A stretch of 64,000 nucleotides of DNA from an uncultured Chitinophagaceae bacterium (GTDB lineage: Bacteria > Bacteroidota > Bacteroidia > Chitinophagales > Chitinophagaceae). A program made the translations under genes and the position numbers. The notes below the pieces were generated by a model. It saw only the letters and a program-made list of their open reading frames with translations, ran no database searches and was not told the DNA's origin. Positions 13,503 to 15,292 of this stretch are shown one piece after another. The stretch is taken from positions 1 to 64,000 of the forward strand of contig CALJNC010000007.1 of assembly GCA_937981995.1 (NCBI GenBank). Direction: 5' to 3'. How positions within the stretch are numbered: position 1 is the first letter of the stretch; each line of letters begins with the position of its first letter.

Positions 13503-13595
13503 ATGCCTTGCGGAAAAAAACGTAAAAGACACAAGATTGCAACACATAAACGTAAAAAGCGTTTACGTAAGAATCGTCACAAGAAGAAGAAATAA
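13503..13595 (+). CDS. 30-residue basic AURKAIP1/COX24-domain ribosomal peptide (bS22/mS38-like)
   Basis: A 30-codon gene encodes a peptide of which more than half is Lys, Arg or His (MPCGKKRKRHK... ending in KNRHKKKK). This is the short peptide annotated in many Bacteroidota as AURKAIP1/COX24 domain-containing. It is related to mitochondrial mS38 and mycobacterial bS22, which sit in the small subunit near the decoding centre. The leader is very A-rich and has no Shine-Dalgarno sequence. It lies between the TPR gene and RNase G. The size and composition make a chance ORF unlikely; the ribosomal role here is by homology. Confidence 0.88.
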   Translation: MPCGKKRKRHKIATHKRKKRLRKNRHKKKK

Positions 13596-13624
13596 TTCTT
13601 TTCATACTTTATTTTATTAACTTT

Positions 13625-13717
13625 TGTGCTCATCATGCTATGGCGTGATAGAACAAATGGTGTATTGCTACCATGTAATGTGGTAAGGATATATACATCT
13701 GCGAAGTTTTGAGCACA
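13625..13717 (+). promoter_or_regulatory. Structured leader upstream of RNase G with competing helices
   Basis: The 140-base gap before rng holds several perfect inverted repeats. TGTGCTCA (13625-13632) pairs with TGAGCACA (13710-13717) and encloses the rest. ATCATGC/GCGTGAT (13632-13638 with 13643-13649, loop TATG, one G-U) and ATGGT/ACCAT (13657-13661 with 13670-13674) lie inside. TACCA (13669-13673) can instead pair with TGGTA (13681-13685), so two helices compete for the same bases. This looks like an RNA control element. RNase E autoregulates through its leader in E. coli; a similar role here is inference. Confidence 0.5.
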
Positions 13718-13735
13718 TGCAAAACAAACATTCGT

Positions 13736-15292
13736 ATGGATAAAGAATTAATCATACAGTCAGGTAAAGACGGCATTGAAATTGCCCTTACCGAAGACAA
13801 AAAACTAGTTGAACTACATTATGATAACTCAGGAGGAGAATTCAATGTAGGAGATTTATACCTAGGGCAAGTACGTAAAGTGGCCAATGGGCTCAATGCA
13901 GTATTTGTAAATATTGGTCATAAGAAGGATGCCTTCTTGCACTACACTGACTTAAGCCCCAACTTTAAAAGCCTTCAAAAGTTTACGGATCATGCACGTA
14001 AGTATGAAAAGTTTAGTTGGGAAAAATTTAAAGCAGAACCTGAAATACAAAAAGCAGGTAAAATCAATGAGGTAATATCTACCAAGCAAAAAATACTAGT
14101 ACAGGTTTTAAAAGAACCCATATCTACCAAAGGACCGCGCATAAGTTGTGAGGTTTCTTTACCAGGAAGGTTTTTAGTACTGGTACCCTTTATAGATCAG
14201 GTAAATGTTTCTAAAAAAATAGAAAGCCGCGAAGAGCGTCATCGTTTAAAAAGCATTATTACCAATATTAAGGAATCTCATTACGGAGTAATTGTGCGTA
14301 CAGCAGCTAAAGGTCGCAGCACAGCAGAATTACACCAAGACTTAACCGCTCTTGCTGACTCTTGGAAAAGCATACAGCATAATTTATATAAAGCTGATGC
14401 ACCTAAAAAGATTTTAAGCGAGCAAAATAAAACAACCTCCTTATTACGTGATTTATTGAATGATGATTTCAATAAAATTGTAACCAATGATGAAAATGTA
14501 CATTCCCAAACAAAAGAGTACATTCAAAAAATTGCACCAGGTAAAGAAAGTATTGTTTCATTACATCAAAATGGTAAATCAATATTTGATCACTTTGGAA
14601 TTAACCATCAAGTAAAATCTGCTTTTGGTAAAACAGTGATGATGGAAGGCGGTGGCTATCTAGTCATAGAGCATACCGAAGCTTTACATGTAGTAGATGT
14701 AAATAGTGGACATAAATTTTCGGCAGATAATCAAGAGCAAACGGCTTTAAATACTAATTTAAGTGCTGTAAAAGAACTTGCACGCCAGTTACGATTGCGT
14801 GATATTGGTGGTATTATCATTGTAGATTTCATTGATATGCGATCAGCCGAAAACCGCAGAGCTGTATCAAAAGCAATGCAAGATGCCATGAAGGATGACA
14901 GGGCAAGACATAGCATATTAGGAATTACCCGCTTTGGACTATTACAAATAACAAGGCAGCGTTTGCGCCCAGCAATTAAAATTGCTACCGGTGAGCAATG
15001 TCCTAGTTGTGATGGCACAGGAAAAGTACGTTCAACACATGTATTGATTGAGGATATTGAAAAACATGTAAAATATCTTACCCGTAATTCTCAAGCTAAT
15101 AATACTATTGTACTTAAAGTACACCCTATAGTTTATTCTCATTTAACTAAGAAAGCTGGTTTTTTCAAACCATCCATTGCTAAAAAATGGAATAAAGCCT
15201 ATGGCAAATTTGAAGTACAAATAGAAGATAATTTAGGGTTCCTCGATTATCAATTCATGGTTAAAGAAACTGGAGAAGAAATAAAATTCTAG
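13736..15292 (+). CDS. rng: Ribonuclease E/G family endoribonuclease
   Basis: This 518-residue protein matches the catalytic region of RNase G, which cuts single-stranded A/U-rich RNA and takes part in rRNA maturation and mRNA decay. An S1-like domain is at about 35-140 ('VGDLYLGQVRKVANGLNAVFVNIG'). The catalytic Mg site shows 'VVDVNSG' and 'IIIVDFIDM' with the conserved Asp residues. The Zn-link cysteines are in 'CPSCDGTG'. There is no long RNase E-type C-terminal scaffold. The ATG at 13736 gives the usual N-terminus (MDKELII...); an in-frame TTG nine codons upstream lies inside the structured leader and is less likely. pnuC follows after four bases. Confidence 0.94.
   Translation: MDKELIIQSGKDGIEIALTEDKKLVELHYDNSGGEFNVGDLYLGQVRKVANGLNAVFVNIGHKKDAFLHYTDLSPNFKSLQKFTDHARKYEKFSWEKFKAEPEIQKAGKINEVISTKQKILVQVLKEPISTKGPRISCEVSLPGRFLVLVPFIDQVNVSKKIESREERHRLKSIITNIKESHYGVIVRTAAKGRSTAELHQDLTALADSWKSIQHNLYKADAPKKILSEQNKTTSLLRDLLNDDFNKIVTNDENVHSQTKEYIQKIAPGKESIVSLHQNGKSIFDHFGINHQVKSAFGKTVMMEGGGYLVIEHTEALHVVDVNSGHKFSADNQEQTALNTNLSAVKELARQLRLRDIGGIIIVDFIDMRSAENRRAVSKAMQDAMKDDRARHSILGITRFGLLQITRQRLRPAIKIATGEQCPSCDGTGKVRSTHVLIEDIEKHVKYLTRNSQANNTIVLKVHPIVYSHLTKKAGFFKPSIAKKWNKAYGKFEVQIEDNLGFLDYQFMVKETGEEIKF

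Follow-up and report, generated by a model that had tools for sequence, protein, structure and literature searches.

What role does the gap upstream of rng play in an uncultured member of the Chitinophagaceae, and does it hold a regulatory RNA? The question is raised by a 64,000-nt stretch of DNA (hereafter the window) from contig C7 of a Chitinophagaceae-like genome (G000), in which genes for an HU-like protein, a TPR protein and a 30-codon basic protein (bS22-like) are followed by a gap of 140 nt and then by rng. A preliminary description of the window took this gap for a structured leader of rng that might switch between two folds and so might be regulatory.

Structure and conservation of the window leader

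The locus comprises the following features.

13503..13595, + strand: bS22-like gene for a 30-codon basic protein (MPCGKKRKRHK...), immediately 5' of the leader
13596..13735, + strand: untranslated leader of 140 nt separating the bS22-like gene from rng; none of the other leaders examined can be aligned to it
13623..13657, + strand: hairpin that follows the bS22-like gene, with its core at 13632-13638/13643-13649 and an extension at 13623-13627/13653-13657
13625..13632, + strand: TGTGCTCA, 5' arm of the long-range 8-bp pair; unconserved
13660..13694, + strand: predicted stable hairpin (13660-13666/13688-13694, inner helix 13669-13674/13680-13685), which excludes the ATGGT/ACCAT helix
13706..13725, + strand: predicted local hairpin GTTTTG/CAAAAC (13706-13711/13720-13725), which competes with the 3' arm of the 8-bp pair
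13710..13717, + strand: TGAGCACA, 3' arm of the long-range 8-bp pair, which stops 18 nt short of the rng ATG; unconserved
13736..15292, + strand: rng, RNase E/G family (PF10150, TIGR00757), with an N-terminal S1-like region and an ATG start

The 30-codon protein has no Pfam or NCBIfam match and is bS22-like by name; almost all relatives have its gene immediately before rng. The window has no Rfam match at the gathering score, and its leader contains no Bacteroidota promoter of the form TTTG-N18-22-TAnnTTTG, a pattern found at chance level within the window. A perfect 9-bp pair, TAATTCTTT/AAAGAATTA (13593-13601 with 13742-13750), spans the whole leader.

The preliminary description had reported the perfect 8-bp pair and a 7-bp hairpin at 13632-13649, and both are present with those letters and at those coordinates; the hairpin joins ATCATGC to GCGTGAT in seven pairs including one G-U, and A13632 is used twice, by the 8-bp pair and by the hairpin. 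It had further proposed that a helix of ATGGT (13657-13661) with ACCAT (13670-13674) alternates with a pairing of ACCA to TGGTA (13681-13685). All of these segments lie where they were placed, but the ATGGT/ACCAT helix is hardly expected to form, its ensemble probability being 0.002-0.009 against about 0.8-0.99 for the ACCA/TGGTA pairing, which amounts to a 6-bp helix (13669-13674/13680-13685), and a switch between the two is not predicted. Two mutually exclusive helices that are both conserved, as expected of a riboswitch, are not seen in the window, where neither proposed alternative is conserved.

The 8-bp pair is missing from the minimum-energy fold of 13596-13735. Imposing the pair costs 0.5 kcal/mol, and because it lies this close to the best fold it could form; its predicted probability in the ensemble varies with the flanks that are folded along and is about 0.25-0.5. 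The competition that the energy models do predict sets the 8-bp pair against the local helices 13623-13627/13653-13657 and 13706-13711/13720-13725. The 7-bp hairpin is stable, with a probability near 1 except at the shared end pair (0.78-0.86). When the 140 nt are shuffled with dinucleotides preserved, 22% of 400 shuffled sequences contain a Watson-Crick inverted repeat of at least 8 bp, and 5.8% contain one that also spans more than 70 nt. The fold of the leader has a z-score of -1.22 (25 of 200 shuffles fold as well), or -1.52 for 13611-13735, and the region around the start is if anything more open than in shuffles (unpaired 0.52 versus 0.43). The coordinates given earlier are thus right, and the significance of the structure was overstated.

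Comparison with close relatives bears directly on the 8-bp pair, the genus of the window being sampled by three genomes only (G000, G001 and G002). In G002 rng is 72% identical and the leader, 93 nt long, has no similarity to that of the window; the leader of G001 (125 nt) is likewise unlike it. The genus closest to this one in the rng tree, g84, provides ten leaders of 94-147 nt. Retention of the paired segments in relatives, on which the preliminary description had made its own reading depend, is not observed: no trace of TGTGCTCA/TGAGCACA or of the neighbouring helices is found in G001, G002 or the ten g84 leaders, and the 8-bp pair was rejected as a conserved element of the genus or its sister genus. 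The g84 leaders have instead a strong, sequence-variable hairpin followed in most of them by a conserved start-proximal segment (TGATTATTGTTGTAAGAAAC-like), which we call class E and describe by a sequence model, R2. The segment GTGTATTGCTACCATGTAATGTGGTAAGGA of the window looks like the g84 segment GTGTATGCGTGTGATTATTGTTGTAAGAAA; this candidate was rejected, as R2 has no match in the window, nor in L005, L169 or L017, even at an E value of 10. One g84 locus (L162, genome G198) carries a single in-frame TAG within the rng reading frame.

Because it is unconserved in the genus, the window structure, including the 8-bp pair and the proposed switch, is most likely incidental, or at most a peculiarity of its own lineage. 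The gap is best explained as a fast-evolving, moderately structured untranslated leader, in which an ordinary hairpin behind the upstream gene is joined by other, AT-rich ones; the hairpin at 13623-13657 occupies the same place as the strong, sequence-variable hairpin found 3' of the bS22-like gene in relatives.

Class A leaders: architecture, covariation and spread

What does not hold for the specific structure of the window, namely that rng has a structured and probably regulatory leader, is supported in other genera by a different structure, a covarying pseudoknot. The motif, here termed class A, occurs in 45 of the 154 distinct leaders between bS22-like genes and rng in the family, and about a quarter to a third of the relatives in the family carry it. 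It lies in an intercistronic leader of roughly 200 nt and reads, from 5' to 3', a strong variable hairpin, the 5' arm of helix P1 (e.g. TATTTGCC), the 5' arm of helix P2 (GCAACTTT), the segment ACCTTTTCCTT, the 3' arm of P1 (GGCAAATA), a variable stretch, the 3' arm of P2 (AAAGTTGC), 3-8 nt and the start of rng. P1 crosses P2, giving an H-type pseudoknot, and the pyrimidine-rich segment ACCTTTTCCTT, which class A keeps, is left by it as an exposed loop. The GCAACTTT/AAAGTTGC helix is near-invariant and always ends 3-8 nt before the start codon (GTG in 42 leaders, TTG in three), while the spacing between its arms ranges from 86 to 199 nt.

Pairing of P1 is supported by covariation. Its arms occur as TATTTGCC/GGCAAATA, CGATTGCCG/CGGCAATCG, CTGCCA/TGGCAG, CAGCTACT/AGTGGCTG, TCGTCACT/GGTGACGA and AAGTAATTA/TAATTACTT, with changes on both sides at 10 of 11 pairs. 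The joint covariation score of P1 and P2 is 0.231 against a shuffled mean of 0.150, none of 500 shuffles scoring as high as the former, and sliding the partner out of register leaves at most 0.112. Native P1 arms also pair better than arms swapped between genomes (19.0 versus 15.9; 0 of 5000 permutations), and this holds with one sequence for each of 26 genera (18.1 versus 14.2; 0 of 20,000).

P2 hardly varies, and its support is therefore of another kind. The helix pairs in 93% of cells and has one compensatory change, C-G to U-A, in L029 (GTAAC/GTTAC). As class A was selected by the P2 arms, their presence in all 45 members is partly a matter of construction, and the fair test is their co-occurrence over all 154 leaders: both arms are found in 45, only the 5' arm in five, only the 3' arm in none and neither in 104 (Fisher p about 1e-33, which serves as a guide only, the sequences being related). 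The proposed pairing of P2 thus draws on co-occurrence, fixed position relative to the start codon, varied spacings and one compensatory change rather than on rich covariation. Matching of T-run to A-run length within P2, considered as additional covariation, was not significant (rho 0.25, p 0.09), and a covarying hairpin P3 in class A was weak (mean z -1.2).

A covariance model whose structure consists of P2 only (R1) gave 49 matches over 197 genomes of the family, 46 adjacent to rng and three elsewhere. The rng-adjacent matches end at the base before the rng start in the listed cases, adjacency in G192 being assumed; the three others are marginal (E 5e-4 to 8e-3) and about what chance would yield over 197 genomes. 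Among 249 genomes of the order, R1 matches only in the Chitinophagaceae. It has no match in the three genomes of the window genus or at the window leader, and the idea that the latter is a diverged class A leader was accordingly rejected; the two best matches within the window lie at 51 kb and 30 kb (E 0.05 and 0.3). In a tree of 38 rng proteins the class A leaders cluster, and the clade of the window (the window, G002, G162 and G035) falls outside them. The absence of R1 matches and this placement together indicate, as far as the sequences tell, that the lineage of the window lost class A or never had it.

Judged by comparative genomics, class A is conserved, covarying, fixed in position and restricted to rng. 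It also seems to be undescribed: an Rfam search of 12 relatives' leader loci at E up to 1 returned no RNase E/G leader family, and a literature search, which covers subscription journals poorly, found no Bacteroidota rng leader.

Other features of rng leaders in the family

A strong, variable hairpin follows the bS22-like stop codon in nearly all leaders, mostly without a U-run, and is possibly a 3'-end stabiliser left after processing of a bS22-rng transcript. The motif TTCTT appears within the first 14 nt, just after that stop codon, in 57 of 154 leaders, against 2.5% elsewhere in leaders (examples come from L018-L126 and others); it is complementary to the lysine codons that end the bS22-like gene and to the rng codons AAAGAA.

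Further leader classes were recognised in other genera. In class C (e.g. L105, L116, L125 and L142) TTACAGC...GCTGTAATG pair locally and overlap the start codon of rng. Some class C leaders keep a CTGCAACTTTATCC segment, and its resemblance to the 5' arm of P2 suggests from sequence that classes A and C are related. Class D, from another group of genera (e.g. L112, L117, L128, L136, L146 and L155; mean fold z about -4), has a covarying hairpin CCTTACAC.../...GTGTAAGG, then a conserved TTTTGTTATT-like segment and then GACGGTAGC-ATG of rng. Classes A, B and E start rng with GTG or TTG, and classes C and D and the window mostly have ATG; the weak starts may fit low expression.

Possible function and alternative explanations

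Ribosomes of the Bacteroidia generally work without Shine-Dalgarno pairing, and in Flavobacterium johnsoniae low structure and A residues at -3, -6 and -12/-13 matter for initiation (PMC8710568). The AAAA of the 3' arm of P2 falls at about -11 to -16 from the rng start, so P2 would hide this upstream A-motif. Formation of the pseudoknot in the class A region, which is presumably transcribed, would plausibly conceal the A-rich stretch used for initiation and thus set an off state that lowers rng translation. The exposed U/C-rich loop ACCTTTTCCTT could in turn serve as a landing or cutting site for the S1-containing RNase E/G, and by analogy RNase G might attack its own mRNA there, closing a negative feedback loop. 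In nested folding the start site of class A is modestly less accessible than in shuffles (unpaired 0.39 versus 0.43). Sequestration of the rng start in every leader class was also considered and is not supported by nested folding, which gives no trend over all leaders (p = 0.31) and a tendency in classes A and C only.

The closest comparisons are with leaders of other RNase E genes. In E. coli, rne is described as subject to feedback by way of its 5' UTR (PMC10989929). The corresponding Rfam family, rne5 (RF00040), is like class A a structured leader of an RNase E/G-family gene, but it is a set of hairpins in a 361-nt UTR, whereas class A is a pseudoknot beside the start codon; its model has no match in the window at the gathering score, nor in the loci of 12 relatives at E up to 1. 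The rne-II motif (RF01756) sits upstream of RNase E genes. It was found by comparative genomics in Pseudomonadales (PMC2864571) and is, like class A, a candidate cis-regulatory RNA, though from another phylum, and its model likewise matches neither the window nor, at E up to 1, any of the 12 leader loci. Synechocystis RNase E cleaves the leader of its own mRNA at a U-rich stretch (PMC10989929). That site resembles the pyrimidine-rich segment of class A, where cleavage would be an analogy, and the passages on it in PMC10989929 describe no conserved pseudoknot.

At a probability of roughly 0.6, we favour the explanation that the pair in the window is incidental and that class A, elsewhere in the family, is a cis-regulatory pseudoknot controlling rng translation, perhaps with feedback by RNase G. 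A wider version, in which an undescribed pseudoknot hides the rng initiation region and is read by RNase G through cleavage or binding, and in which other lineages including that of the window have replaced it with equivalent folds, strikes us as doubtful. Closer to the locus itself, the window leader might be a genuine lineage-specific switch, an analogue of class A with new sequence, in which the 8-bp pair competes with the local hairpins (13623-13657 and 13706-13725) to control rng. The small energetic cost and appreciable ensemble probability of the long-range fold are compatible with this, and the rng leaders of the family are clearly structured, in several forms that differ between lineages (class z means -2.7 to -4.2), so that architectures normally turn over fast here; however, the pair is absent from both other genomes of the genus and from the sister genus, the z-score of the leader fold is only -1.2 to -1.5, the chance level of the pair is 22%, the start region is no more paired than in shuffles, and the 3' arm stops 18 nt short of the ATG rather than the 3-8 nt of class A, which together make such a switch improbable.

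The gap could also be a spacer that carries a 3'-end or processing hairpin of the bS22-like mRNA, in which case rng would share the transcript and escape regulation at this site. The hairpin seen behind the bS22-like gene in nearly every leader, mostly lacking a U-run, fits a stabiliser or processing element, the window has such a hairpin at 13623-13657, and no terminator-like site was found on the + strand between 12200 and 15400; yet at 140 nt the gap is long for a spacer and nothing more, and conserved elements are maintained in the same gap in relatives, so that we consider this rather unlikely. Class A, for its part, might be a riboswitch-like element that binds a metabolite or a protein such as a ribosomal protein, and not an RNase G feedback device. 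A conserved pseudoknot with near-invariant nucleotides beside the start codon is laid out like translational riboswitches and ribosomal-protein leaders, and class A always adjoins a ribosomal-protein-like gene. Its occurrence beside one gene only, rng, in 46 genomes is unlike most metabolite riboswitches, however, and self-cleavage feedback has precedents among RNase E genes in the passages of PMC10989929 cited above; a ligand-binding role seems a less than even prospect, and a fairly remote one.

In enterobacteria it is established that an RNase E/G gene can be controlled through its leader, and the same has been proposed in a cyanobacterium. A conserved pseudoknot leader would mean that Bacteroidota, whose ribosomes generally do without Shine-Dalgarno pairing, arrived at such control independently, and class A is directly testable by reporters in culturable Chitinophagaceae. 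The leaders of rng are replaced fast between genera, which explains how the fold of one genome can mislead.
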